A DNA stretch of 36,367 nt from Pseudomonadota bacterium. Lineage in GTDB: Bacteria > Pseudomonadota > Alphaproteobacteria > Acetobacterales > Acetobacteraceae. The stretch spans positions 1 to 36,367 of the forward strand of contig JAJZCG010000018.1 of NCBI GenBank assembly GCA_021846225.1, in the 5' to 3' direction. Below, in pieces: positions 4,740 to 24,814 of this stretch. Each line of letters starts with the position of its first letter. Position 1 is the stretch's first letter. Below the pieces are notes generated by a model. The model did not search any database and had not been told where the DNA came from. It was given only the letters and a program-made list of their open reading frames with translations. Both the position numbers and the translations under genes were made by a program.

Positions 4740-5404
4740 GCCGCACCGCCATCATCACCGCCATCCAGCGCGGCCTCAAGCGCGGCCCGCTACCCACGGA
4801 CCAGCAGGCCATGCTCACCAGCCGCCTCAAAACCCACCCGCGCGGCCCCATCCCGGCGCGGGGCCAGTTGGACCTCCCCGGCCGCATCGCCCTGTTCACC
4901 AAACAGGCCGAGCGCGAGTTCGCCACCGTGGCGCATCTCGCCACCCTGGCGGAAATCCCCACCGCCATCGCCGCCTATCTGGCCCGGTTGAACCTGCCGC
5001 CCACCCTCACCATCTCGCCGCACCCGGCCCTGCGGGCCATCCCCTTCGCCGCCACCCCGGCCCTGCAAATCCGCTCCGGCACCGCCCTGCCCGCCGAGTC
5101 CACCTGCCTCACCCTCGCCTTCGCCGGCATCGCCGAAACCGGCACCCTGCTCCTGCCCTCCGGCCCGCAAACGCCCACCACCAACAACATTCTGCCTGAC
5201 AATTCGCTCGTCCTGCTTCCCGCCGCGCGCCTCACCGCAAGCTATGAGGACGCCTTCGACCTCCTGCGCGCCGAACAAGCCCTCCCGCGCAACGTCATGC
5301 TCATCACCGGCCCCTCACGCTCGGCCGACATCGAGCAAACCCTGGAACTGGGCGCCCACGGCCCGCGCCGCCTGCATATCCTGATCCTCGATGGCCAGGG
5401 CTAA
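4736..5404 (+). CDS. lutC: LutC-type LUD-domain protein
   Basis: This 222-residue LUD-domain protein is the small subunit partner of LutB in lactate utilisation. The features are the central FAGIAETGTLLL, the family's (A/S)ETGT motif, then LPDNSLVLLPAARL and the C-terminal ITGPSRSADIEQTLELGAHGP, which is the conserved end of LutC proteins. Its ATG overlaps the lutB stop as ATGA, implying translational coupling. The C-terminus overlaps the downstream Smr gene by 14 nt. Confidence 0.92.
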   Translation: MSRTAIITAIQRGLKRGPLPTDQQAMLTSRLKTHPRGPIPARGQLDLPGRIALFTKQAEREFATVAHLATLAEIPTAIAAYLARLNLPPTLTISPHPALRAIPFAATPALQIRSGTALPAESTCLTLAFAGIAETGTLLLPSGPQTPTTNNILPDNSLVLLPAARLTASYEDAFDLLRAEQALPRNVMLITGPSRSADIEQTLELGAHGPRRLHILILDGQG

Positions 5405-5903
5405 AGCGCTCTCCGCGGCGGATATGAAGCTCTGGGCGGCCTACAGCCAGACGCTCTCACGCCTGATGCCCGGCAAAACCCGCCTGCCCGTGGAGCCCGA
5501 ACCCGCAGCCCAAACCGCCCCGCCGCCAGACCCGCCGCCGCTCAAACCGCGCGCTCCGGCCAGCCACGCCCCCTATATCAGCCTGGACACCACCCCCACC
5601 GGCCTCGACAAATCCACCTGGAAAAAATTCGCCACCGGCAAAATCCGCGCCGTCCAGCGGCTGGACCTGCACGGCCACACCGCCGCACGCGCGCATCACG
5701 CGGTCATTCATTTCATCGAGCGCTCCTATTCCAGCCAGCTACGCTGCATCGAAATCATCACCGGCAAAGGCGAGATCCTCTCGCGCGAGCTGCCGTACTG
5801 GCTCAACGCCCCTTCGCTGCGCCCGCTCATCCTGGCCGTCGCCCACCCGCATGCCGCCAACACCGGCTCGGTACGCATCCTGCTCCGGCGCCTGCGCGCA
5901 TGA
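5391..5903 (+). CDS. Smr-domain endonuclease-like protein
   Basis: This 170-residue protein has a proline-rich, probably disordered N-terminal half (about residues 30-60) and a C-terminal Smr domain (about 88-170). The Smr hallmarks LDLHGHT (91-97) and ITGKG (123-127) are present. Smr domains derived from MutS2 often have DNA or RNA nicking activity; the substrate here is unknown. The start overlaps lutC by 14 nt and the stop overlaps the next gene by 4 nt, so it is in the same transcription unit. This association with lutC is positional only. Confidence 0.88.
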   Translation: MARAKALSAADMKLWAAYSQTLSRLMPGKTRLPVEPEPAAQTAPPPDPPPLKPRAPASHAPYISLDTTPTGLDKSTWKKFATGKIRAVQRLDLHGHTAARAHHAVIHFIERSYSSQLRCIEIITGKGEILSRELPYWLNAPSLRPLILAVAHPHAANTGSVRILLRRLRA

Positions 5904-6328
5904 CCCCCTTCGGTGAAAAACTCCGATGCCTGCGCACTGAACGCGGCATCCTGCAACGCGACATGGCCGCCGCCCTGGAAGTCTCCCCCGCCTACCTCTC
6001 AGCACTGGAACACGGGCGCCGCGGCGCCCCCGGCGCCGGGCTGATCCACCAGATATGCTCCTACCTCGGCCTCATCTGGGACGACGCCGACGAGCTGAAA
6101 GCCCTGGCCAAACTCTCCCGCCCGCGCCTGAAACTCCACACCGCCGGGCTGACTCCCGAGCAAACCGCGCTGGGCAACCGCATCGCCCGCGCCTTACGCG
6201 ACCTGGACCCGCCAACCGTCGCCGCCATGCACAAACTCCTGGACGCCGCCCAGGAATCTACGCCCGAATCGCCCCCGCCGCGCGCAAAAACCCGAGCAAA
6301 GGCAGCAGGTTCAACCCCAGAATCGTGA
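5900..6328 (+). CDS. XRE-family helix-turn-helix regulator
   Basis: This 142-residue protein has an N-terminal XRE/Cro helix-turn-helix (about residues 4-62): FGEKLRCLRTERG, QRDMAAALEVSPAYLSALEHG, then a long fourth helix. The middle part is helical and the C-terminal 35 residues are proline/alanine-rich. It overlaps the Smr gene as ATGA, so it is the last gene of the lutB-lutC-smr unit and could be its regulator, though this is inference. Its last 23 codons overlap the 3' end of the convergent maf gene, which is unusual. Confidence 0.85.
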   Translation: MTPFGEKLRCLRTERGILQRDMAAALEVSPAYLSALEHGRRGAPGAGLIHQICSYLGLIWDDADELKALAKLSRPRLKLHTAGLTPEQTALGNRIARALRDLDPPTVAAMHKLLDAAQESTPESPPPRAKTRAKAAGSTPES

Positions 6329-7532: not shown

Positions 7533-8132
7533 TTATGCCCCAGCCTCTGGCAAGCGGATTTTGCGCGCCAGCGCCGCCAGCGCCTCCGGATAAAGCCTGT
7601 GCTCCTGCACCAGCACCCGCGCCGCCAGCGCCTGCTCGCTATCGCCGGGCAGAACCGCCACCCGCGCCTGCGCCAGCACCGGCCCGGCATCCATCTCCTC
7701 TGTCACCAGATGCACCGTGCAACCATGCGCCGCCTCGCCCGCCGCCAGCACCCGCGCATGGGTATCCACCCCCGGATAAGCCGGCAGCAAACTCGGGTGG
7801 ATATTCAGCATCCGCCCGGCCCAGCGCTTTACCAGATAAGGTGTCAGCAGCCGCATGTATCCGGCCAGGCACACAATCGCGATGTTGCGTTCCACCAGCG
7901 CCGCGTCAATCGCCCGTTCATGCGCCTCGCGGTCCCGGCCGAACGGCTTGGCAGGCACCGCCAGCGCCTCCACCCCCAGCCCGCGCGCAATCTCCAGCCC
8001 CGCCGCATCCTCCTTATTGGAGATCACAAGCGCAACCTGCGCCGGATAGTCCGCCGCGCGCGCCGCCCTGATCAGCGCCTCCATATTGGAGCCGCGCCCG
8101 GAAATCAGAATCGCAACGCGCGGTTTAGGCAA
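7533..8132 (-). CDS. purN: PurN, phosphoribosylglycinamide formyltransferase
   Basis: PurN transfers a formyl group from 10-formyl-THF to GAR in purine synthesis. The 199-residue protein has [16 protein letters not shown] near the N-terminus, the catalytic region [21 protein letters not shown], and [20 protein letters not shown], all diagnostic. The start is TTG 8132, overlapping the purM stop by 8 nt, because AGGAG lies exactly 7 nt upstream. An alternative TTG at 8153 has no such site. The overlap implies translational coupling with purM. Confidence 0.95.
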
Positions 8133-9156
8133 ACAGGCTCTCCTGCCCCGCAATCACGACACCCGGCCGGTCCGTCACATGCCCAAGCAGAAACGGCGCC
8201 TCCCCGGCCTCACGCAACAGCGCCATTGCCGCACCGGCGTCGCTCACGATCAGCGTCATCCCAACCCCGCAGTTGAACACCCGCAGCATCTCCTCCGCCG
8301 CCACATTCCCCGTCCCGGCCAGCCAGGGGAACACCGCGGGCATATCCCACGGCCCGTTCAGCGCCGCGCCACAGCCCTCGGGCAGCGCGCGCGGCAAATT
8401 GCCCGGCAGCCCGCCGCCGGTAATATGCGCCGCCCCCTTCAGCAATCCGGCCTTATGCAGCGCCAGCACCGGCTTCACATAAATCCGCGTCGGCTGCATC
8501 AGCACTTCAGCCAGGCTGCGCCCATCGCCAAACGCCGAATCCCAGTTCAGCCCCGCATTGGCGATAATCCGCCGCACCAGCGAGAATCCGTTGGAATGCA
8601 CGCCCGATGACGGCAACGCCAGAATCGCATCGCCCGCCGCAACGCCCGCCGGCAGCAGCGCGCCACGTTCAGCCGCCCCCACCGAGAACCCCGCGAGGTC
8701 ATAATCCCCCGCCGCGTACATCCCCGGCATTTCCGCCGTCTCGCCGCCCACCAGCGCGCAACCGGCCAGCGTGCAGCCCTGCGCAATCCCCGCGATCACC
8801 CGCTTGGCCGCGTCCACATCCAGCGCCCCGGTGGCGAAATAATCCAGGAAGAACAGCGGCGCCGCCCCCTGCACGATCAAATCATTCACGCACATCGCCA
8901 CCAGGTCGATGCCGACATGGTCATGAATCCCCGTCTCGATGGCGATTTTCAGCTTGGTCCCCACGCCATCGGTGGTCGAAACCAGAATCGGGTCCACAAA
9001 CCCCGCCGCCTTCAAGTCGAACAGCGCGCCGAAGCCGCCCAACCCCCCCAGCACCCCGGCGCGCGAGGTCGCCTTGGCCAATGGTTTAATCGCCTCAACC
9101 AGCGCGTCGCCGGCCTCGATATCCACACCGGCATCCCGGTACGTTACGCTGGTCAT
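8125..9156 (-). CDS. purM: PurM, AIR synthetase
   Basis: PurM cyclises FGAM to AIR with ATP. The 343-residue length is standard. The motifs are [13 protein letters not shown] at the N-terminus, [55 protein letters not shown] and [13 protein letters not shown], in the usual order. The ATG at 9156 has GGAGG 5 nt upstream. The TTG at 9168 lies within that ribosome-binding site and is rejected. The gene is divergent from the permease-hda-ppk1 unit, and the 112-nt gap between them must hold both promoters. Confidence 0.97.
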
Positions 9157-15930: not shown

Positions 15931-17697
15931 TCAGGCGTCGCGGATAATCTCGCGCACGGCATCTGCATCGGGCACCATAAGCGCGGCGGCGGCCATTTCG
16001 TCGCATTGCGCCTGGCTCACGGCGCGGATGGCGCGTTTGACCCGGGGAATGGCATTGCCGTGCATGGAGAGCTGGCGGATGCCCAGACCGAGCAGCAACG
16101 GCGCGGCCTGCTCACGGCTGGCGAGTTCCCCGCAGAGGGAAACCGCGATGCCGGCCTGCGCCGCGGCGCGCGTTGTCATGCCGATCAGCCCGAGAACAAC
16201 CGGTTCCAGCGGATCATAAAGCTTGCTGCCCACCGGCAGGCCGCGATCGGCCGCCAGCGTGTACATCGTGAGGTCATTGGTGCCGATGGCGAAGAAATCC
16301 GCATGCCGGGCAAGCTGGCCGGCGGCCAGGGCAGCGGCGGGGGTTTCCACCATGATGCCAAGCGGCGGCTTTTGCGCGGCCATGCGCACGCCCTTGCGCT
16401 TCAGCCGCTTCCACACACGGTCATAAATCTCGCGGGTGGCAAGAATTTCGGCGGCCAGCGAGACCATGGGCAGCATGATACGCACCGGCCCAGCGGCGCC
16501 GGCCCGCAGGATGGCGGCAAGCTGGGTTTCCAGCAGCGAGGGGTGGCGTAGCAGCAGGCGGATGCCGCGCAGGCCCAGCGCCGGATTCGCCTCGTCATGC
16601 AGCGGCAGATAGGCGCTGAGCGCCTCAATTTCCTTATCAGAGCCCCAGTCGAGCACGCGGATGGTCACCGGGTCGCCGTCCATCGCATCCACGATATTCC
16701 GGTAGATTTCGCTCTGGGTATCCTCATCCGGGAGGATTTCGCGGTTCATGAAGATGAACTCGCTGCGCAGCAGACCAATGCCGTGCGCGCCCGATTGCGC
16801 GATCATCGGCAGTTCGAACGGCAGTTCCAGATTGGCCTGCAGGCTTACAACGGTGCCGTCACGCGTGGCGGCGGGCAGGCGCTGCAGGCGGATGAGCGCG
16901 CGGCGCGTACGCGTGAGCGCCGCCAGCTTCTGCTGCGCGGCGTCCAGGCTGGACTGGCTCGGGTTGATGATGACGGTGCCGGTCTCGCCGTCGATGATCG
17001 CGAGGCTGCCCGGCGCGGCGGCGGAGAGCACACCGGCGGCGCCCAGCACCGCGGGCAGGCCCAGCGCGCGCAGCATGACGGCCGTGTGGCCGTCGGCGCC
17101 GCCCTCCTCGGTGATGATGCCAGCAAAATTCGCGGGCTGGATGAGTGCCGCATCGGCCGGACGCAGGTCGCTGGCGGCCAGGATGCAGCCGTGCGGCAGG
17201 CCGGCGAAGCTGCGGAAGGGCTGGCGCGTGAGATTGCGCAGAATGCGGCGGCCAATTTCGCGCACTTCCTCGGCGCGGCGGGCGCGGCCCTGGCGGTCAG
17301 AGCCGGTCAACGCCAGAATGGCTTCGGCCTGCGCCTCGCTCTCCGCGTGAACAGCCGCCTCCGCCGCTGTCAGCCCATCCTCGACCCGCGCCTTGATGCC
17401 GCGCATCAGCCGCGAGGGGCCGAGCATGTGCAAATAGGCATCGATCAGCGGGGCGATCTCGGTCTGGCTATGCTCGGGCAACCCGGCCAAACGCGCCTTC
17501 AGCTTACCCAGCTGGTGCCGGGAGCGGGCCAGCGCCTCTTCCAGCCTCGACATCTCCGCCGCCGTGTCCGCCGCCGCGATTTTTTTATGGGCGATGGCCA
17601 GCGCGGGCTCGGCGGTCTCATGTACCGGGCCAATACCAATACCCGGCGAGACCGGATGGCCGGTGAAACGCTGTTCAGCCCGGCTAGTCTGTTTCAT
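15931..17697 (-). CDS. ptsI: PTS enzyme I (phosphoenolpyruvate-protein phosphotransferase)
   Basis: This 588-residue EI takes phosphate from PEP and passes it to HPr. The phosphohistidine is His204 in EEGGADGHTAVMLR, with the alphaproteobacterial variant residues before His. The PEP-binding barrel shows LLRSEFIFM, then GIRLLLRHPSLLETQL, IMLPMVSLAAEI and FFAIGTNDLTMYTLAADRG. The catalytic Cys region is VSLCGELASREQAAPLLLGLG. There is no N-terminal GAF domain, so this is EI rather than EI-Ntr. The ATG at 17697 overlaps the ptsH stop by 14 nt. Confidence 0.93.
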   Translation of the reverse strand: MKQTSRAEQRFTGHPVSPGIGIGPVHETAEPALAIAHKKIAAADTAAEMSRLEEALARSRHQLGKLKARLAGLPEHSQTEIAPLIDAYLHMLGPSRLMRGIKARVEDGLTAAEAAVHAESEAQAEAILALTGSDRQGRARRAEEVREIGRRILRNLTRQPFRSFAGLPHGCILAASDLRPADAALIQPANFAGIITEEGGADGHTAVMLRALGLPAVLGAAGVLSAAAPGSLAIIDGETGTVIINPSQSSLDAAQQKLAALTRTRRALIRLQRLPAATRDGTVVSLQANLELPFELPMIAQSGAHGIGLLRSEFIFMNREILPDEDTQSEIYRNIVDAMDGDPVTIRVLDWGSDKEIEALSAYLPLHDEANPALGLRGIRLLLRHPSLLETQLAAILRAGAAGPVRIMLPMVSLAAEILATREIYDRVWKRLKRKGVRMAAQKPPLGIMVETPAAALAAGQLARHADFFAIGTNDLTMYTLAADRGLPVGSKLYDPLEPVVLGLIGMTTRAAAQAGIAVSLCGELASREQAAPLLLGLGIRQLSMHGNAIPRVKRAIRAVSQAQCDEMAAAALMVPDADAVREIIRDA

Positions 17698-17971
17698 TAA
17701 AGCCGGCCTCGATGAGCACGGCGATGGCGTCCAGCGCCTCGCGCGCGTCGAACCCCTCGGCAATGAGTTGCACCCGGCTCCCCTGCCCGGCGCCCAGCAT
17801 CATCAACCCCATGATCGAGCGGGCGGAAACGCGCTGGCCATCCTTCGCGACATCGACCGAGGCGCTGAAGCGCTCCGCCAGGGTGACCAGCTTGGCCGCG
17901 GCGCGCGCGTGCAGGCCGCGCCGATTAATGATGCCGACATCCATTGTAATCGCCGCACTGTTCTCGCTCAT
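17684..17971 (-). CDS. ptsH: HPr phosphocarrier protein
   Basis: This 95-residue HPr has the active-site His21 in RRGLHARAAAKLV and the regulatory Ser52 in SARSIMGLMMLGAG, which is the kind of serine phosphorylated by HprK. It relays phosphate from EI to the EIIA encoded just upstream. Start ATG 17971 lies 3 nt after the EIIA stop and the 3' end overlaps ptsI. The presence of both phosphorylation sites fits with hprK in the same operon. Confidence 0.95.
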   Translation of the reverse strand: MSENSAAITMDVGIINRRGLHARAAAKLVTLAERFSASVDVAKDGQRVSARSIMGLMMLGAGQGSRVQLIAEGFDAREALDAIAVLIEAGFNETD

Positions 17972-17974
17972 GTC

Positions 17975-18397
17975 TTACTCCGCGGCGCGCGGGGTGGTGG
18001 TGGGGCTCTGAATTTCATGACCCGAGCAGATGTATTTGCGCCCGGCGTCCTCGGCGCAGCGCACGGCCTCGGCCAGTGCCTGCGTGCCGCGGATTTTCGC
18101 CAGCTTCACCAGCATGGGCAGGTTCACCCCGCCGATGATCTCAACACCCGGCTGGCTCAGCATGGACATCGCCAGATTGCTGGGAGTGCCACCGAACATA
18201 TCGGTCAGCAGGATGACGCCGTCGCCGGAATTGACCTCCTCCAGCCGGCGGGCGATTTCCGCGCGCTGGCTCTCGAATTCGGCATCCGATTCCACACACA
18301 CGGTGGCAACGTTCTTCTGTTTGCCGACAACGTGTTCCATGGCGTCGCGCAGGGCAACGGCCAGCGCGCCATGGGTAACAAGAACCAGACCGATCAT
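17975..18397 (-). CDS. PTS EIIA component, mannose/fructose (Man) family
   Basis: This 140-residue EIIA-Man domain has the phosphohistidine His9 in LVLVTHGALAVAL and the motif GVILLTDMFGGTPSNLAM, followed by VNLPMLVKLA, all characteristic. No EIIB, EIIC or EIID gene is present in the window. In alphaproteobacteria this protein (often called PtsM/ManX-like) is part of a regulatory relay rather than a transporter. The ATG at 18397 gives a normal N-terminus and lies 10 nt after rapZ. Confidence 0.93.
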   Translation of the reverse strand: MIGLVLVTHGALAVALRDAMEHVVGKQKNVATVCVESDAEFESQRAEIARRLEEVNSGDGVILLTDMFGGTPSNLAMSMLSQPGVEIIGGVNLPMLVKLAKIRGTQALAEAVRCAEDAGRKYICSGHEIQSPTTTPRAAE

Positions 18398-18407
18398 GTT
18401 GAGAGAC

Positions 18408-19307
18408 TCATTCCTTGGCGTGTAATTTCTGGTTGGTCCGCGCGGCTTCAAACTTAGCGGCTTCGCGGTGGGTAACGCTTACACGCCACCCCGCTCTGCC
18501 TAAACAGCTCTTCAATTTTTCAATCATATACACTGATCTGTGTTGCCCCCCGGTACATCCGATACAGATTGTTGCATATTTTTTTCCTTCCTGCACGAAC
18601 CTCGGTAATAAAAATTCAATCATGCCCTTGATATGGCTAAAATAAACAGCAAAATCAGGATCCTGCTCGATGAAACTGCCAATTTCAGGATCAAGGCCGC
18701 TCAGCGGGCGCAAGGTGGGGTCGTAATGCGGATTGCGCAAAAATCGAACATCGAAAACCATATCCGCCTCAGGCGGGAGGCCGCCAGGATAGGCGAAGGA
18801 GACCAGGGAAATCGCCATGGGCGGGGCGCCGGCGCCGAAATTCTGCTCAACGATGGCCCGCAGGCGCGCCAGCGGGAGGTTCGATGTGTCAATCCGCAAA
18901 TCGGCCGCCTGCGCCAGCGGCGCCGTGAGCGCGCGTTCCAGCGCGATTCCCTCCGCCACCGGCCCCGATTGCGCGAGCGGATGGCGGCGGCGGGTCTCGG
19001 AGTAGCGGCGCAGCAGCACGTCCTGGGTTGCGGTGGCAAACACCAGGGAGGGGGCAAGCGCCGGATGCACGCGCAACCGGGCGAGGGTTTCCAGCACCGC
19101 CTCTGAGGAAAACCCGCGCGAGCGGGCATCAACCCCAATGGCGAGGTTTTTCTCGGCCCGGCTGGCCAGATCTTCCAGCGTGGCGAGGGGGGGGTTGTCG
19201 ATGGTCTCGAACCCCAGGTCTTCGAGCGCGCGCAAAATAGCGTTCTTGCCCGCCCCGGAGAAGCCGGTGACAAGAACAATGCTGAGTTTCTGGCCTGCGC
19301 CGCTCAT
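18408..19307 (-). CDS. rapZ: RapZ/YvcJ-type nucleotide-binding adapter
   Basis: This 299-residue protein has the RapZ layout. A P-loop GFSGAGKN (15-22) is followed by ALEDLGFETIDNPPL. The C-terminal half has FVQEGKKYATICIGCTGGQHRSVYM, the strongly conserved RNA/metabolite-binding region. RapZ in E. coli binds sRNA and senses GlcN6P; in other bacteria it is linked to cell-wall precursors. The last P-loop residue is Asn where Ser/Thr is usual. The ATG at 19307 overlaps the hprK stop by 4 nt and places the gene in the PTS operon. Confidence 0.93.
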   Translation of the reverse strand: MSGAGQKLSIVLVTGFSGAGKNAILRALEDLGFETIDNPPLATLEDLASRAEKNLAIGVDARSRGFSSEAVLETLARLRVHPALAPSLVFATATQDVLLRRYSETRRRHPLAQSGPVAEGIALERALTAPLAQAADLRIDTSNLPLARLRAIVEQNFGAGAPPMAISLVSFAYPGGLPPEADMVFDVRFLRNPHYDPTLRPLSGLDPEIGSFIEQDPDFAVYFSHIKGMIEFLLPRFVQEGKKYATICIGCTGGQHRSVYMIEKLKSCLGRAGWRVSVTHREAAKFEAARTNQKLHAKE

Positions 19308-19738
19308 GGCGCGAAACTGCCCGCAACCTGGGTGAGGCGGCCGCAGGCGGCCTCCAGCGCCAGGACGGCGCGGGCAACGGCGGAAGCCTGCGCCGGGTCT
19401 ATGGTAACGCACGGCAAGCCCAGTTGCACATGGGTTTGCGGTTCGGGCAGGCGCGCGGCGGGCACCCCAAGGCTGACAACCAGGCGCAGCGGCGCGCTGG
19501 CCAGATGCGGCAGGCGGAAAATGCCCAGCCCGCGCACCTCCAGCAACCCGGCCAGCGCCGCCGGGGCGCTGGCGATCGCGTTCCAGATCACCACCTGATC
19601 ATCGGCCACAAGGCTGAAACCCTCGTGGATCAGCCGCAGCAAAAAATCGGATTTCCCCGCCCCCGGAGGACCAAGGAGCAGAATGGCGTCGTAGCCGTCC
19701 GGGCCGGGCCAGGCGGCGCAAGAGGCGTGCATGCGCAT
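19304..19738 (-). CDS. hprK: HprK-type HPr kinase/phosphorylase, short alphaproteobacterial form
   Basis: This 144-residue protein corresponds to the catalytic domain of HprK only, lacking the N-terminal domain of the Gram-positive enzyme (about 310 residues), as usual in alphaproteobacteria. It has MHASCAAW at the start, Walker A GPPGAGKS (23-30), LVADDQVVI and RGLGIFRLPHLASAPLRLVV. HprK phosphorylates HPr Ser52 in the same operon. The start at ATG 19738 is chosen; ATG 19732 is also possible. No strong ribosome-binding site is visible. It is the first gene of the operon, with recombinase debris immediately upstream. Confidence 0.9.
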   Translation of the reverse strand: MRMHASCAAWPGPDGYDAILLLGPPGAGKSDFLLRLIHEGFSLVADDQVVIWNAIASAPAALAGLLEVRGLGIFRLPHLASAPLRLVVSLGVPAARLPEPQTHVQLGLPCVTIDPAQASAVARAVLALEAACGRLTQVAGSFAP

Positions 19739-19794
19739 AATGGGGCGAATGTGGCAAGTTTTAGGCAAAAGCGAAAGGGCCGGGCGCCTTAAGC

Positions 19795-20058
19795 TCAACA
19801 GGTGGCTTCACATTGCCGGTGAACAGTTGCGCCTCCCCCTGGACTGAGGTCACGCCCCTACCCGGCTCCAACCTTGTCCGTCGAGTGACCAAAAATCTTG
19901 CCCGCCAGCTCATCGTCAATATTGCCTTCCCTCAGCATTTACCGGAATTCGTGCCTCAACGAATGCAGCACCAGCTCCGGATCATCACGGACCCATGCTG
20001 GCGTGCTGGGCGCGACGAAGGCAACAGTTATGGCTACATGTGGCGTCCAATGCGCGGC
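19795..20058 (-). pseudogene. Tyrosine-recombinase (phage integrase) C-terminal remnant
   Basis: On the minus strand one reading frame reads ...DDPELVLHSLRHEFR, then a stop, MLREGNIDDELAGKIFGHS, TDKVGAG, then a stop, GRDLS. This is the catalytic end of a phage-type integrase: the HSLRH (His/Arg) box and the GHS box are clear. The first stop (TAA, 19941-19939) follows the RHEFR box. The second (TAG, 19860-19858) lies where these proteins carry the nucleophilic tyrosine (KVGAGY). Both stops are in the same frame 81 nt apart, so this is decay by point mutation, not frameshift. The N-terminal domains are missing; the frame closes at about 20061. It is non-functional. Confidence 0.8.
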
Positions 20059-20105
20059 TCACATTCTACCGTGTCAGGGCAGGCCGCTAAAAAACCCCTT
20101 GCTCT

Positions 20106-20294
20106 GTGGCTTTTGATCGGCGCCGTGATCGGCTTTTTAGCTATGTCCGGCCGGGGAGCCGGCTCGCGAAGGACCACCCGCTGCGGGTGATCCGGCAGGT
20201 AACGGATGGGGCGCCGGTGTCTTTGAGCGAACTATTTCCGGTTTTATATTCCGAATTTGGCCAGCCACCTCGTCCTCGCCCGCCATGCGTCTGA
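20106..20294 (+). pseudogene. Truncated IS5/IS1182-type transposase N-terminus
   Basis: A 62-codon frame from GTG 20106 encodes LFSYVRPGSRLAKDHPLRVIRQ and then LSELFPVLYSEFGQP. This matches the start of IS5/IS1182-like transposases (FSYV...ADHPLR...LSPxFxxLYxxxGRP). The match ends at about 20272, where a frameshift or deletion gives a short junk tail and a stop at 20294. The DDE catalytic region is absent and no terminal repeats are visible. It is an inactive remnant beside the integrase remnant. Together they occupy the roughly 590-nt gap between hprK and the next intact gene. Confidence 0.65.
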
Positions 20295-20333
20295 ATCCAC
20301 AATTCTGCGGCTTGCGATGCGGCCGGGCGGCAA

Positions 20334-21347
20334 TCACCGGAATTCTTCAACAATCTCCGCCATCTCCTGCGGTGGCGCCGCGTAACTCACAAGCCTCACG
20401 TCAAGGTTAAAAGATTGCATCATTTTTAGAGCCCGCCGCATGGCGCCGTAAATCCAAACGCTACGATTGCCAAAAGCGCCACCGCCGAGAAGGGTCAGGA
20501 AAACGACATTTGATGCACCGCGTTGCGCGTTCAGTACCGCCGCCCACATTGTAGCCTCGTATGCGGCCTCCAGAACCAGCGCCGCGAAGACTGCCCAATG
20601 AGCCGGCGGCACGCGGCTGTAAGCCACTGGGAGCGCCGAGCAGAATGCCTGAGAAACGCGCGGCCGGTCTGGCCGCGTTGCTTCGGTGACTTCCACATCC
20701 CGATGGAGCCCGATGCCCAGCTTTCCGCGCAGGACATCGATCTGCTCTGCCGTCAAAGTTTCGAGATGCCGGGCGATGGCATCAAGGCCGGTTTGGCTTG
20801 CCAGCGCGTAGCCGTTCTGCATGCTCCAAAGATCGCCAACGGGTATTTGCATGCCCGCGCTCAAAGCCGCGCCAAGACCGGCGAGGCCATCGAGCTGCCT
20901 CTCCGCCGTTTGGCCCTGGCTGTCCCCGACGGGGACGAAGTAATTGCGGTAGATGGTCGCGGCGCCTGCGGCGATGGCGCAAGCAGGCCCTTGAGTGTGA
21001 TCGTTTTGATAGCGCGTCACGCCATGTCCCGGCGTTACAGCCGGCGACACCATCTCCAGCAGATTGAACTGAGAGGCTACCTGGAACAGTGCACCGGCAT
21101 TTTCGGGAACCCGATGCATGCGCCGAACGTCGCCTTCCACCACGCGCATCTTGATCCGGCCAGGCAGGTCTCCCGCGGAATTCGCCCGTTCGCGAAGCGC
21201 TTGCAGTGAAACCAACTCAAGCTCGCCGATCCCATAGCTCGCGCCGTTGACCAGGGAGTGGAGTCTTCCACTCCTCACGGCCAGCCGGGCACGCGTTTCT
21301 TCATAGCCGGTCTCGCGAAACCCCGTTAATTCTTCGAACCAGTCCAT
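20334..21347 (-). CDS. Unrecognised conserved-looking protein with GGGAFGN motif (possible PARG/macrodomain-like fold)
   Basis: This 337-residue protein has no motif I can assign with certainty. The visible features are LFQVASQFNLLEMVSP (88-102), TRYQNDHTQGPACAIAAGA (111-129), IYRNYFVPVGDSQGQTAERQ, a middle helical region, and the C-terminal VFLTLLGGGAFGNRSVWI with GGG at 288-290, then LDVRLVSYAAPP. The glycine-rich AFGN segment followed by a helix resembles the GCGAFGN region of microbial poly(ADP-ribose) glycohydrolase-type macrodomains. The remainder does not give further support. It appears intact, with no signal peptide or membrane segment. ATG 21347 has GGAGAGG upstream. It lies 15 nt after the phosphatase gene on the same strand, so the two are probably co-transcribed. 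Confidence 0.55.
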   Translation of the reverse strand: MDWFEELTGFRETGYEETRARLAVRSGRLHSLVNGASYGIGELELVSLQALRERANSAGDLPGRIKMRVVEGDVRRMHRVPENAGALFQVASQFNLLEMVSPAVTPGHGVTRYQNDHTQGPACAIAAGAATIYRNYFVPVGDSQGQTAERQLDGLAGLGAALSAGMQIPVGDLWSMQNGYALASQTGLDAIARHLETLTAEQIDVLRGKLGIGLHRDVEVTEATRPDRPRVSQAFCSALPVAYSRVPPAHWAVFAALVLEAAYEATMWAAVLNAQRGASNVVFLTLLGGGAFGNRSVWIYGAMRRALKMMQSFNLDVRLVSYAAPPQEMAEIVEEFR

Positions 21348-21362
21348 GATCCTCTCCAAATC

Positions 21363-21914
21363 TCACGCCGGGATCGCGCCGATCTTCAGGACGTATTTTT
21401 CTTGCGCCGAGGTCTCGATGGCACCGCAACGCACGCGGCGCACGCGACTGATCGCGGTCTCTGGCTCCATGCCTAGCTCGATCAAAAGCCGGGCTCCTAT
21501 CATACCGGCACGCCCTAACCCGCCCCGGCAGTGTACCAGAACATCGCTGTTGCCACGCAGCAGCGCGCGGAGTTTTTCACCAGCAACGTCCCATTGCCGT
21601 TCGAATCCTTCGTCTGGCGTTGAAACATCGACGATCGGCAGATGGAACCATAACATCTGCCTGCGGCGCACTTCCTCACCAAGATTTTCCACTCGAAGAA
21701 GAGCTAACTCCTTCGCCTCCACCAATGTAACGACGGCAGCGGCTCCCCAAGTCCGGATCGCATCGAGATCGAGAGCGAGATCGCGGTCCCAATACCCGCT
21801 CATGCTGTGCAGATCATATTTGCCGGGGCAGAAGGTGACGCCAACGCGCCCGAAGGCTGGCCCCGCGGATATGGTGGCGATCTCCAATGGATTGGTCAAA
21901 GAGGTCTTTGTCAT
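21363..21914 (-). CDS. CDKN3/dual-specificity-type protein phosphatase
   Basis: This 183-residue phosphatase has the P-loop signature C129-x5-R135 within VLVHCRGGLGRAG, a likely general acid Asp96 in LPIVDVSTP, and the N-terminal pattern GVTFCPGKYDL, then YWDRDLALDLDAI and WGAAAVVTLVE. This type, related to eukaryotic CDK inhibitor 3 phosphatase, often occurs in bacteria fused to or beside an ADP-ribosylglycohydrolase (family knowledge). Here the partner is instead the GGGAFGN protein. It follows acr3 after 100 nt on the same strand. No strong ribosome-binding site precedes the ATG. The substrate is unknown. Confidence 0.82.
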   Translation of the reverse strand: MTKTSLTNPLEIATISAGPAFGRVGVTFCPGKYDLHSMSGYWDRDLALDLDAIRTWGAAAVVTLVEAKELALLRVENLGEEVRRRQMLWFHLPIVDVSTPDEGFERQWDVAGEKLRALLRGNSDVLVHCRGGLGRAGMIGARLLIELGMEPETAISRVRRVRCGAIETSAQEKYVLKIGAIPA

Positions 21915-22014
21915 CGAGGTTTTCCCCGCCCCTGTTGCATCCTAGGCTCTTGGGTGGAGAATAAGCGCGTGTCACCTTGCTCTGCAAGGCTGGCCGTAAT
22001 TCGCACCCAGCGTC

Positions 22015-23103
22015 TCAGCCATGGCTCTTGGCTTCATCGGCGCGCTCATACCAGCCCTTGGTCGCGGTCACGAGTTTCACTGTCAGCAGCATCACGGGCA
22101 CTTCAATCAGCACCCCCACCACCGTCGCCAGCGCCGCGCCGGAGTTGAAGCCAAACAGGCTGATGGCCGCCGCCACCGCCAGCTCGAAAAAGTTCGAAGC
22201 GCCGATCAACGCCGAAGGGCAGGCAATGTTGTGTTTTTCACCCAGCGCGCGGTTGAGCCAATATGCCAGCGTGGCGTTGAAGAATACCTGCACCAAAATG
22301 GGCACGGCCAGAAGCACGATCACCAGCGGTTGCTTGATGATTTGCGCGCCCTGGAATGCGAACAGCAGCACCAGGGTGAGCAGCAGCGCGAGGATTGACC
22401 ATGGGCCGATCCTGGCCATCGCGGCGTCGAAAAAAACCTGTCCGCGCTTGAGCAAACTGCGGCGCCAGAGCTGGGCGATGACGACCGGAATGACGATGTA
22501 GAGGACCACGGAGGTGAGCAGCGTGGCCCATGGCACGGTGATCGCCGACAACCCCAGCAGCAAGCCGACGAGGGGCGCGAAGGCAAACACCATGATGGTA
22601 TCGTTAAGCGCGACCTGCGAGAGCGTGAACAGCGGATCGCCGTTCGAGAGGCGGCTCCACACAAAGACCATGGCCGTGCACGGGGCGGCCGCCAGCAAGA
22701 TCAGCCCCGCTATGTAGCTGTCAATCTGCCCGGGCGGCAGCAATGGGCGGAACAGATGCCCGATGAACAGCGAAGCCAGCAGCGTCATCGAGAAGGGTTT
22801 GACCATCCAGTTGATGAACAACGTCACGCCGATGCCGCGCACATGCTGCTTCACCTCATGCAACGCCCCGAAATCGACCTTCACCAGCATGGGGATGATC
22901 ATCACCCATATCAGCAGCCCGACGGGCAGATTGACCTGGGCGATTTCCATGCCCCCCACCGCCTGGAACAGCCCGGGGGCCACCTGCCCGGCCAAAATCC
23001 CGGCGATGATGCACAAAAAAACCCAGAGACTCAAAAAGCGCTCGAACACGCTCATCTTCGCCCCGGCCGCGGCCCTGGCAGTAACCTCACATTGTACAGA
23101 CAT
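22015..23103 (-). CDS. acr3: Acr3-family arsenite efflux permease
   Basis: This 362-residue protein exports arsenite across the inner membrane. It has about ten transmembrane helices and the ACR3 signatures ILLAAAPCTAMVFVWSRL, with the conserved Cys of the family, LNDTIMVFAFAPLV, and ALIGASNFFELAVAAAISLFG near the C-terminus. Start ATG 23103 has AGGAGC about 5 nt upstream. It lies 9 nt after arsC, and is the transport step of the arsR-arsC-acr3 operon. Confidence 0.93.
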   Translation of the reverse strand: MSVQCEVTARAAAGAKMSVFERFLSLWVFLCIIAGILAGQVAPGLFQAVGGMEIAQVNLPVGLLIWVMIIPMLVKVDFGALHEVKQHVRGIGVTLFINWMVKPFSMTLLASLFIGHLFRPLLPPGQIDSYIAGLILLAAAPCTAMVFVWSRLSNGDPLFTLSQVALNDTIMVFAFAPLVGLLLGLSAITVPWATLLTSVVLYIVIPVVIAQLWRRSLLKRGQVFFDAAMARIGPWSILALLLTLVLLFAFQGAQIIKQPLVIVLLAVPILVQVFFNATLAYWLNRALGEKHNIACPSALIGASNFFELAVAAAISLFGFNSGAALATVVGVLIEVPVMLLTVKLVTATKGWYERADEAKSHG

Positions 23104-23112
23104 AACAGCTCC

Positions 23113-23526
23113 TTACAGGCCCAGGGCTTCGCGGACGGCAGGCACCAGGCGGGCGCGGATATCATCACGCACGCGGATGAAACTCTCCAGCGGCTCGCCA
23201 TGCGGATCGTGGAACGCGATGTGCATGCGCGGCACCGGGCGTGGAAATACCGGGCAGGTTTCCTTGGCATTATCACAAACGGTCACAACCAAGTCGATCG
23301 GCTCATTCATCACCGCGTCAACGTCTTTCGGGTAGAGCCCCTCGGTTGGCAGCCCTGCCTCCTGCAATGCCGCAATGGCACCGTCAGCCACCTTGGGCTG
23401 CGGGCGTGTACCCGCCGAGACAGCATGAACCGCGCCGCCCAGATCGTGCCGGAGCAGCACTTCCGCCATCTGCGAACGGCAGGAATTGCCGGTGCAGAGA
23501 ATGAGAACCGTTTTGTTAGCTGTCAT
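23113..23526 (-). CDS. arsC: Thioredoxin-coupled arsenate reductase (LMW-PTP type)
   Basis: This 137-residue enzyme reduces As(V) to As(III). The P-loop is CTGNSCRSQ (Cys11 to Arg17), and the two resolving cysteines lie at Cys84 and Cys91 in TVCDNAKETCPVFP, matching the Cys10/82/89 set of thioredoxin-dependent ArsC. It has no glutaredoxin-type ArsC features. The ATG at 23526 has AGGGG 11 nt upstream, which is somewhat distant. It lies 60 nt after arsR and 9 nt before acr3, in one operon. Confidence 0.95.
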   Translation of the reverse strand: MTANKTVLILCTGNSCRSQMAEVLLRHDLGGAVHAVSAGTRPQPKVADGAIAALQEAGLPTEGLYPKDVDAVMNEPIDLVVTVCDNAKETCPVFPRPVPRMHIAFHDPHGEPLESFIRVRDDIRARLVPAVREALGL

Positions 23527-23586
23527 TAAAATAGGCCCCTTGATTGAAAGATTTCATGAAACCGGCGCCACCCTGGCAGCCAGTCA

Positions 23587-23946
23587 TCAATGCTGGAAAG
23601 CGGCAGGTTTCGCCGGGCAGCAAGAGATAAGCTCGTTGATGAGCGGGGCGCATTGATCGCGATTACCGCCGCAGCAATCGGAGACGAGGAAGAGCATCAT
23701 CGCCCGGAAACGCTCCAGATCGGCCCGGTAGATGATCGAGCGGCTTTTCCGCTGGCTCTGCACCAGCCCAGAGCGGGCAAGAATCCCCAAATGCGCCGAG
23801 AGCGTGTTGTGTGGAATTTCCAGCTGCCGGGCGATTTCACCGGCGGCAATTCCGGCCGGCTCATGGCGAACCAAAAGCCGGAATACGTCCAGCCGGGTTG
23901 CCTGCGCGAGGGCGCCAAGAGCGAGAATGATGCCTTCATTGTCCAT
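23587..23946 (-). CDS. arsR: ArsR-family arsenite-responsive repressor
   Basis: This 119-residue winged-helix repressor has the ArsR helix-turn-helix (about 33-62: GEIARQLEIPHNTLSAHLGIL) and a wing (QSQRKSRSIIYRA). It lacks the CVC motif of plasmid R773 ArsR. Instead it has C-terminal Cys91, Cys92 and Cys99 in DCCGGNRDQC, as in the Acidithiobacillus-type ArsR, plus a further Cys109-Cys110. The ATG at 23946 is chosen since it begins MDNEGIILALGALAQATRLDVF. A much longer frame has junk N-terminal sequence. It has no ribosome-binding site and the promoter lies unusually close. Confidence 0.93.
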   Translation of the reverse strand: MDNEGIILALGALAQATRLDVFRLLVRHEPAGIAAGEIARQLEIPHNTLSAHLGILARSGLVQSQRKSRSIIYRADLERFRAMMLFLVSDCCGGNRDQCAPLINELISCCPAKPAAFQH

Positions 23947-23965
23947 ATTTCGTTTATAGTGGACA
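23940..23965. promoter_or_regulatory. Candidate ArsR operator (TGTCCA inverted repeat)
   Basis: TGTCCA at 23940-23945 and TGGACA at 23960-23965 form a perfect 6-bp inverted repeat around a 14-nt spacer. The repeat spans the arsR start codon and the -10 box, so protein bound here would block transcription. Autoregulation by ArsR is usual. The repeat is short and could be chance. Confidence 0.35.
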
Positions 23966-23981
23966 TAACCGACAATGACAA
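23953..23981 (-). promoter_or_regulatory. Sigma-70-type promoter of arsR
   Basis: On the minus strand TTGTCA (plus 23976-23981) lies 17 nt before TATAAA (plus 23953-23958), each 5 of 6 matches to the consensus. The expected start of transcription is about base 23946, the A of the arsR ATG, so the mRNA may be leaderless or nearly so. Confidence 0.7.
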
Positions 23982-24088
23982 GGCCACAACGCCCCCGGGA
24001 ATGACCCAGATCGCCTACGAAATTTTCGCAGATACCGATGAGAGTGCCGCAGCTATGGCCGTGCCCCCGCCGCGTGGTGCAGGTGGCC

Positions 24089-24814
24089 CTACGCCATGTA
24101 TTGGCCACCATTGGCGGTGATCGTGGCGCCCGTTATAAACGCTGCCTCATCACTCACCAGAAATTGCACGACCCTGGCAATCTCATCCGCCTGGCCCAGG
24201 CGGCCCACCGGTATCTGCGCGACAATCTTGGCGAGCACGTTCTCCGCCACCTCAGCCACCATTTCAGTTGCGGTATATCCCGGCGCCACCGCATTCACCG
24301 TAATGCCCTTAGCGGCGGTCTCCAGCGCAAGCGCTTTCGTGAAACCCAAAACACCCGCCTTTGCCGCCGCATAATTTGTCTGTCCGGCTTGCCCCTTTTG
24401 CCCGTTGATTGATGAGACGTTGACGATCCGTCCGAAACCGCCCTCACGCATCGGCTCGATCACGGCGCGGCACATGTTGAAGCAGGATGTGAGATCCGTC
24501 TCGATGACCTGCTGCCACTGCGTGGGGGTCATCTTATGGAGCATGGCATCGCGGGTGATACCGGCGTTATTGACGAGAACTTCCACCGCGCCGCCAAAAT
24601 CCTTCGTAACGCCGCGTAAGCCCGCCTCACATGCTTCGTAATTCCCAACATCCCATTTATAAATGCCGATGCCGGTCTCATGCTGGAACGCTGCGGCGGC
24701 GGCATCATTGCCATGATAAACCGCGGCAACCGCATAGCCGCTCTCCTTGAGCCGGCGTGCAACCGCCGATCCGATTCCGCGTGTTCCTCCAGTAACAACA
24801 GCAATCCTATTCAT
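24089..24814 (-). CDS. phbB: PhbB-type NADPH acetoacetyl-CoA reductase
   Basis: This 241-residue short-chain dehydrogenase reduces acetoacetyl-CoA to (R)-3-hydroxybutyryl-CoA for polyhydroxybutyrate synthesis. It has the cofactor motif TGGTRGIGSAV, NNAGITRDAMLHKM, the catalytic Ser in VNVSSINGQKG, Tyr-x3-Lys in NYAAAKAGVLGFTK, and the PhbB-like ending ANGGQYMA. No phbA or phbC is adjacent. The ATG at 24814 is preceded by GAGAAAATGGG. It is separated from the downstream arsR by 142 nt containing the ars promoter. I see no gene in that gap. Confidence 0.9.
   Translation of the reverse strand: MNRIAVVTGGTRGIGSAVARRLKESGYAVAAVYHGNDAAAAAFQHETGIGIYKWDVGNYEACEAGLRGVTKDFGGAVEVLVNNAGITRDAMLHKMTPTQWQQVIETDLTSCFNMCRAVIEPMREGGFGRIVNVSSINGQKGQAGQTNYAAAKAGVLGFTKALALETAAKGITVNAVAPGYTATEMVAEVAENVLAKIVAQIPVGRLGQADEIARVVQFLVSDEAAFITGATITANGGQYMA

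Follow-up and report, generated by a model that had tools for sequence, protein, structure and literature searches.

ADP-ribosyl hydrolases are now viewed as possible enzymes of immunity. Bacterial PARGs reverse the ADP-ribose linked to the 2′-OH and to the phosphate of RNA, two of them protect Escherichia coli from the RNA-modifying toxin RhsP2, and DRB0099 is located in a putative operon with a phosphatase/kinase protein, as reported in passages of PMC11833690. According to a part of PMC10951314, DUF4804-class macrodomains achieve hydrolysis although they lack the motifs of PARG and MacroD, and operons that are centred on an ADP-ribosylglycohydrolase (ARG) and have no transferase of their own were proposed in section 3.8 of Iyer et al. 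2022 (PMC9503650) to undo viral ADP-ribosylation. Here we analyzed a contig of 36,367 nt from a Pseudomonadota bacterium of the Acetobacteraceae (JAJZCG010000018.1, assembly GCA_021846225.1; the whole stretch is called the window), in which two intact genes of the minus strand, separated by 15 nt, encode a CDKN3-type phosphatase and a 337-residue protein with a predicted PARG-like macrodomain fold, as shown in Table 1. Both genes have relatives in many genomes, so they are more than chance open reading frames (ORFs). We regard it as rather probable that the two genes form a small accessory unit for erasing ADP-ribose, most likely one that undoes foreign ADP-ribosylation.

An AlphaFold2 model of the 337-residue protein, based on an alignment of 59 sequences, had a predicted local distance difference test score (pLDDT) of 93.2 and a predicted template modelling score (pTM) of 0.92. 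When the model was compared with the PDB by Foldseek, ranks 1 to 13 were all PARG entries or chains from T. curvata or D. radiodurans, with a best E-value of 2.6e-6, and rows other than macrodomains appeared further down the list, where mitoribosome chains of T. gondii, for example, took ranks 21 and 40. VIA-align superposed 234 residues on T. curvata PARG 3sih with a Z-score of 17.0 and a root-mean-square deviation of 3.7, and all of the 50 matches listed were PARG, macrodomain, ADRP or YmdB structures, including 1spv, presumably YmdB, and a chain of 7wr6, whose family we likewise presume. Across the bacterial-type PARGs (PF10021; 3sih and 3sig of T. curvata, 5zdb of D. radiodurans), the likeness of the predicted fold extended over 222–234 residues with Z-scores of 15.3–17.0. 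At the level of sequence, identity in nine PARG rows was 10–14%, the PDB search with the protein itself gave a best E-value of 1 (spike proteins, by chance), and that with the family profile gave 0.27 (a Cas protein). No family match was obtained in Pfam, NCBIfam, PHROGs or PADLOC, and the 59-member alignment gave no consistent Pfam match (21 families, each for one of the 59 members, best E-value 0.0055). An earlier note on this DNA, made from the letters alone, had left the protein unassigned, had likened its GGGAFGN region to the end of PARG-type macrodomains and had proposed structure prediction with Foldseek as the check; the databases uphold the first point, and the predicted macrodomain-like fold bears out the likeness and answers the check. 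Its description of an unrelated-looking partner holds for the sequence, which has no Pfam family and no PARG signature, and does not hold for the fold.

Motifs were counted in 67 relatives (59 members of alignment A1 and eight plasmid or viral-contig members) and in five control PARGs. The five aligned PARGs display a loop of the type LNFAS..NPGGGFL.GA.AQEE, plus LGAWGCG.F.N, whereas the family of the 337-residue protein displays FQVASQFNLLEM...P..G...Y..D.TQGP, plus LT.LGGGAFGN. The two thus share the LG(A/G)..G.F.N diphosphate loop and the AS..N start of the catalytic loop, and differ in the loop that follows, where the relatives have their own ASQFNLLEM...DxTQGP, placed against the PARG loop and QEE from the motif order by eye and not by residue-level superposition. 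A total of 53 columns were invariant across the 59 sequences, 20 of them within residues 89–124, and C123 was nearly invariant (TQGP.C in 59/59 and 7/8). The patterns used to search for loci include QFNLLEMV and YQNDHTQG, so the invariance of the motifs was partly selected; four plasmid members found by tblastn without patterns also hold ASQFNLLEM and D.TQGP, and a viral-contig protein, at 29% identity, retains both. Conservation of this kind around the cleft suggests that the protein is an enzyme working with another catalytic set and not an inactivated PARG.

Membership in the described classes was rejected by sequence signature or, for ARPP, by the described fold. None of the 59 members matched PF10021 (PARG) at E-values up to 5 or PF01661 (Macro, MacroD type). 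The MacroD motifs were not both present, as Nx6GG[VLI] was found in 5/59 and 0/8 and G[VIA][YF]G in 52/59 and 8/8. The DUF4804 motifs [VIL]xGxGxGx[FWY] and WDxx[SA]xPGN[DE][FY][FWY] were each found in 0/59 and 0/8. The protein resembles the arginine-specific DUF4804/MavL macrodomains (as described in part of PMC10951314) in that it is a divergent macrodomain lacking both the MacroD and the PARG sets of motifs, but its family has neither DUF4804 motif. Like the ARPP of ARG systems in section 3.8 of PMC9503650, it is an uncharacterised partner of rhodanese-superfamily phosphatases with a conserved Cys and Gln; however, ARPP, compared by its description only, is a beta-meander/beta-barrel protein, and the model of the 337-residue protein is PARG-like alpha/beta.

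The partner is a member of the CDKN3/PTP-SAK phosphatases of the rhodanese superfamily, since it exceeds the curated Pfam cut-offs (PTP-SAK 6.1e-12, CDKN3 2.2e-10, Tc-R-P 1.3e-9; bit scores of 46.3 against a gathering score of 27 for PTP-SAK and of 40.9 against 20.7 for CDKN3) and holds an intact C-x5-R site in HCRGGLGRAG. Its relatives in other genomes reach 80% identity. Pairing was surveyed in the best 80 of 322 loci with relatives of the 337-residue protein (48–77% identity), obtained by a pattern scan with one genome per species. Gene calls in these loci came from a caller trained on the family's codons, which mis-starts or misses genes, such as a wrong-strand ORF over hprK-ptsI in L011. 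With the partner profile, 32 phosphatase genes were detected among 841 called genes of 81 loci (the 80 and the window), and 30 of the 32 adjoin, or share an ORF with, a relative of the 337-residue protein, i.e., in 29 of the 80 loci and in the window. One locus (L030) encodes a full-length fusion of the phosphatase and the relative of 567 residues. In L022 the phosphatase is two genes distant, and in L032 it is six genes away, is 47.5% identical to that of the window and carries a fused ADP_ribosyl_GH domain that is truncated where the locus ends. By tblastn, a further phosphatase was detected in L052, where the contig end truncates the locus, and L053 gave a weak match.

Most of the partners carry HC[RK]GG[LR]GR (HC[RK]GG[LR]GR[AT] in the proteobacterial ones). 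A second set with HCWGGKGR(T), from Actinomycetota and one bin labelled Verrucomicrobia, is 34–37% identical to the phosphatase of the window, so two phosphatase subfamilies occupy the same place beside the relative. On the family tree, where 21 of 64 rows were counted as strictly paired and L052 and L053 were left out, pairing required at least 9 changes, compared with a mean of 17.8 for shuffled labels (0/300 as low), so it is partly inherited, yet repeatedly gained or lost. A mirror-tree test of 22 pairs gave a rho of 0.53 (0/2000 permutations as high), which shows only that the pair travels together. In Actinomycetota, a DUF7229 protein precedes the pair (L051, L054, L061, L067 and L080) and is fused to the phosphatase in L051.

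Relatives of the 337-residue protein were distributed in Pseudomonadota, Actinomycetota, Verrucomicrobiota, Acidobacteriota, Bacteroidota, Planctomycetota, Campylobacterota and others. Within the taxonomic family of the host, one of 199 other genomes holds a near-full relative (G312, in two pieces), three others gave weak or partial matches, and none of 30 congeners examined has the protein. By tblastn, 338 of 72,556 plasmid records matched, all at <60% identity, with 260 from Klebsiella and 58 from Escherichia; 288 of the 338 were predicted to be conjugative, and wherever the gene was annotated in the rows seen it was labelled hypothetical protein. Among 5,426 complete E. coli genomes, six matched the Klebsiella-type gene, all on plasmids, with five covering at least 80% of the gene. 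Four copies (L113 and L115–L117: NZ_CP104927.1, NZ_CP051369.1, NZ_CP010124.1 and NZ_CP036328.1), 45–47% identical, lie on IncF-type plasmids of Klebsiella, Salmonella and E. coli; those of L113 and L115 are about 3 kb or less from repA, and that of L117 adjoins an SOS response-associated (SRAP) peptidase gene. In IMG/VR, seven contigs hold a relative, of which two pairs have identical scores. One of these viral contigs (L109:4983-5978) resembles a T4-type tailed phage from its ORFs read by eye, with SbcC/SbcD-like and virion-like ORFs, also labelled by eye, around the relative. This suggests that phages also carry relatives, and 0 of 50,697 records of named phages matched by tblastn. Foldseek against viral models detected full-length relatives in giant viruses (Yasminevirus, 32% identity, E-value 4e-30; Bodo saltans virus, 30%), namely BFVD A0A5K0UBT0, A0A2H4UUF0 and A0A2H4UVR4, with the full fold at 30–32% identity; one of them, of 873 residues from Bodo saltans virus, is annotated as a RING-finger protein, which hints at a ubiquitin link. 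No description of the family was found in the literature covered, to which preprints, most subscription papers and the supplement of PMC9503650 did not belong, and nothing was found there under the signature peptides or on giant-virus PARG.

The neighbours of the relatives were labelled with one BLAST probe each and are therefore rough (the WYL gene of L015 was missed by its probe), and the tally within three genes is no statistical control because most genes of these short loci fall within that distance in any case, whereas the position of the phosphatase at plus or minus one is such a control. In the 80 loci, NrtR-like genes were found in 8, vWA in 8, calcineurin-like phosphatases in 6, DUF7229 in 5, WYL in 4 and TY-chaperones in 2. 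The NrtR-like gene of L017, which was checked, contains NUDIX and NrtR_WHD, and L017 and L019 have the same gene layout. Three individual loci are particularly informative. In L047 (Hydrogenophaga), the relative shares 1 nt with an ARG (PF03747, 1e-49), and an ankyrin protein stands before it. In L015 (Variovorax), a WYL regulator is followed by a sirtuin (PF02146, 2.5e-49) whose frame enters the start of the relative; a second SIR2 neighbour was tallied with no locus assigned. In L079 (Pirellulaceae), a canonical PARG (PF10021, 4.1e-34; 5225-5992) shares 1 nt with the relative, and after one intervening gene comes a second PARG (~8104-8898), placing the relative between two PARG genes. Proteins with ankyrin repeats (L047, with a weak match in L078) or related proteins of 219–229 residues lie by the PARG-fold gene in L047, L072, L078 and L081 and may be a further partner.

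The window and its relatives resemble the ARG-centred systems, as described in section 3.8 of PMC9503650, in the rhodanese-superfamily phosphatase that is a partner or fusion, in the NrtR-like/NUDIX or WYL, calcineurin phosphatase, vWA and TY-chaperone neighbours of the relatives, with the ARG itself in L047, and in that no ADP-ribosyltransferase or other ADP-ribose writer was recognised among the window neighbours scanned. They differ in that the window has a PARG-fold protein for the glycohydrolase and no regulator beside the pair, and in that the genome of the window (97.8% complete) has no PF03747 match, compared with matches in 5 of 14 control genomes. The genome also has no PF01661 or PF01885 (KptA) match, with positive controls matched, and no PF10021 match, although none of the 14 control genomes had one either, which leaves the absence of PF10021 uncertain; the family did match in 2 of 299 genomes of the phylum. 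Since 'Macro' is listed among the accessory genes in PMC9503650, some of these proteins may be counted there. Sirtuin-macrodomain pairs, a class named in the same source, are approached by the row of WYL regulator, sirtuin and overlapping relative in L015, the one locus named; the gene of the window has no sirtuin beside it. Of the earlier claims, the phosphatase with a full C-x5-R site is confirmed by the Pfam scores and the motif, and the expectation that the two genes recur together elsewhere is borne out in 29 of the 80 other loci. That the protein takes the place of an ARG is favoured by the phosphatase-ADP_ribosyl_GH fusion of L032, although in L047 relative and glycohydrolase occur together.

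In the mechanism that we propose, the divergent PARG-fold macrodomain would hold the ADP-ribosyl group via its diphosphate loop LGGGAFGN, and the bond at the C1″ of the ADP-ribosyl group would be cleaved by the family-specific loop ASQFNLLEM...DxTQGP, which would replace the GGG/QEE of PARG, with D116, Q119, E98 and N95 as the best catalytic candidates. The phosphatase might then remove a phosphate from the released ADP-ribose product or from the freed end of the target. The unit would undo ADP-ribosylation performed by others, such as phages or competing bacteria, with the PARG-fold protein in the place of the glycohydrolase; the foreign origin of the mark is suggested because no recognisable ADP-ribose writer lies beside the pair in the window and the spread is patchy. 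Hydrolase activity, substrate, role of the phosphatase and defence are what we infer, whereas fold, conservation, pairing, fusions and neighbour types were computed. A broader proposal, which we put forward tentatively, is that the relatives, found in many phyla, on IncF conjugative plasmids, on a phage-like contig and in giant viruses, are an undescribed class of macrodomain hydrolases with ASQFNLLEM...DxTQGP for QEE, and form with the phosphatase a two-enzyme module of immunity or counter-immunity that strips foreign ADP-ribose marks. If this were true, a large PARG-fold family with a different conserved loop, concealed by the label 'hypothetical protein' even in hundreds of plasmid records from Klebsiella and E. 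coli, would be a new class of erasers. It would also put the indispensability of the QEE glutamates to the test, and the proposed anti-ADP-ribosylation operons would gain a second core enzyme.

Several observations weigh against an erasing unit directed at foreign marks. The GGG-x6-8-QEE signature, in the wording of PMC10951314, and QEE were found in 0 of the 67 relatives, compared with 5/5 control PARGs, so activity cannot be assumed and the protein could be a reader. In hhalign against five bacterial PARGs, residues 228–308 only, with GGGAFGN within, were aligned at an E-value of 0.0022 and a probability of 12.8%; the link in sequence is faint, and the claim of homology therefore rests on the predicted structure. 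No adjoining phosphatase was found in 51 of the 80 loci (L052 being cut by the contig end, and L022 and L032 having it further off), including L003 and L004, which at 74–76% identity are among the closest relatives, and none was annotated beside the relative in the five plasmid copies examined. Among the 29 paired loci, three are fragments (L009, L033 and L034), two have the phosphatase on the opposite strand in convergent orientation (L014 and L023), and L026 and L028 come from one metagenome-assembled genome; moreover, the paired loci group together on the tree and thus do not all count as independent cases. Each type of neighbour (NrtR-like, WYL, vWA, calcineurin, sirtuin, ARG or PARG) is present in a small number of loci, no NUDIX or WYL regulator was found among the eight window neighbours scanned, and no PADLOC model matches. 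The sirtuin of L015 may be a writer, so an eraser without a writer is not valid everywhere.

Other explanations were weighed against the erasing of foreign marks. If the protein were a reader or sensor, binding ADP-ribose or one of its derivatives so as to regulate or deliver the phosphatase, the latter would be the sole enzyme. The loss of the PARG signature in all 67 relatives with the diphosphate loop retained is what a reader would show; however, the catalytic-loop region is the most conserved part of the protein, with invariant acidic and amide side chains that we would not normally expect in an inactive binder, MavL-type macrodomains use residues other than QEE for hydrolysis (reported in part of PMC10951314), and most loci have no phosphatase for the protein to control, which makes a reader quite unlikely. 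The clean-up of nucleic-acid ends, in which the PARG-fold protein would free the phosphate ends of RNA or DNA from their ADP-ribose caps, leaving a 5′ or 3′ phosphate for the phosphatase to trim, would mean repair rather than immunity. It is in line with passages of PMC11833690, where an RNA/DNA ligase and a phosphatase/kinase protein accompany a D. radiodurans PARG in a putative operon of three genes and where ADP-ribose at the 5′-phosphate and 2′-OH of RNA is a substrate of bacterial PARGs, and with the SRAP peptidase gene by the Klebsiella plasmid copy and the SbcC/SbcD-like nuclease genes, read by eye, by the viral-contig copy (L109). We nevertheless find it unlikely, as no ligase or polynucleotide kinase was found among 25 of 71 neighbour families and the match of the phosphatase to the polynucleotide 5′-phosphatase 1yn9 is marginal (E-value 0.049).

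A salvage of small molecules towards NAD, with the pair recycling ADP-ribose 1″-phosphate, O-acetyl-ADP-ribose or similar and NrtR as the sensor of ADP-ribose, would agree with the NrtR-like genes (8/80 loci), with the NUDIX or calcineurin genes of others and with the sirtuin next to the relative in L015, which might supply O-acetyl-ADP-ribose. It appears very improbable, since the patchy spread, the conjugative plasmids and the phage-like contig fit a housekeeping route poorly and the genome has no KptA match for making ADP-ribose 1″,2″-cyclic phosphate. The earlier note had placed the two genes 15 nt apart and 100 nt behind an ars operon, which the ORF coordinates corroborate (the gap between the phosphatase gene and the acr3-type gene is 21915-22014), and had gone on to attach them to that operon, which the comparisons do not sustain. 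The genes upstream of the pair match HTH_20 (ArsR-type helix-turn-helix), LMWPc (ArsC type) and SBF in Pfam, the last of which we take to be the family holding Acr3-type pumps. A function linked to arsenic would draw on the shared strand, the short distance past acr3 and a possible read-through from the ars promoter, since no terminator-like site was found below 22290 on the minus strand within the stretch scanned; the promoter and terminator scan was close to shuffles (2 against 0.9, standard deviation 1.0; 4 against 3.3, standard deviation 2.1). Against it, no homologue of ArsR, ArsC or Acr3 was detected in the 80 related loci (tblastn, E-values up to 1e-4), and 18 of the 30 congeners have a DNA match to part of acr3, none of the 30 having the 337-residue protein. 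In the nearest relatives, G505 and G497 (93% identity), homology breaks off 7 nt past the stop codon of acr3, different ORFs follow, and the four acr3-bearing congener contigs read (these and two more) contain neither protein of the pair. In a proteobacterial bin (L011) whose pair is 65–66% identical, the phosphatase and the relative precede hprK-rapZ-EIIA-HPr-ptsI in the same orientation, an arrangement like that of the window, and 1 kb of upstream sequence gave no ars match, so the shared feature, in one locus of 80, is the place before the operon of the phosphotransferase system (PTS) and not the ars neighbour. The arsenic link was rejected on these grounds and is hardly credible. The ars neighbourhood looks incidental: with its patchy distribution and the layout of L011, the pair appears to be a patchily held unit that stands behind ars here by happenstance.

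Table 1. Features of the phosphatase and PARG-fold gene pair and its surroundings in the window.
Feature	Position	Strand	Basis
Dual-specificity/CDKN3-type (rhodanese-phosphatase superfamily) phosphatase	21363..21914	-	183-aa ORF, ATG start; Pfam matches; solved relatives SsoPTP, CDKN3
Phosphatase signature C-RGGLG-R, C129 to R135 (C-x5-R)	21510..21530	-	Sequence, script motif search
PARG-like macrodomain-fold protein (predicted)	20334..21347	-	337-aa ORF, ATG start; predicted structure; no Pfam/NCBIfam/PHROGs/PADLOC family
ASQFNLLEM, residues 91-99, at the place of the PARG FAS..N-P-GGG loop	21051..21077	-	59/59 + 8/8; PARGs 0/5
D-x-T-Q-G-P, residues 116-121, at the place of the PARG catalytic QEE	20985..21002	-	59/59 + 8/8; PARGs 0/5
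GGGAFGN, residues 288-294, diphosphate-binding-loop equivalent of PARG WGCGxFxN	20466..20486	-	hhalign alignment; GG.[FW].N 57/59 + 8/8
arsR-arsC-acr3 operon, upstream neighbour, judged outside the unit	22015..24111	-	Pfam HTH_20, LMWPc, SBF

The layout of the pair with the PTS operon covers L011:1066-6517 and positions 15931-21914 of the window, and may be a shared place of insertion or an old linkage. About 540 nt (19796-20333) separate the HPr-kinase-like gene from the pair, and this segment gave three short matches only among the 30 congeners (88–147 nt; G497, G503 and G511). The ORF of the 337-residue protein has an alternative upstream TTG start, which would give 341 residues.

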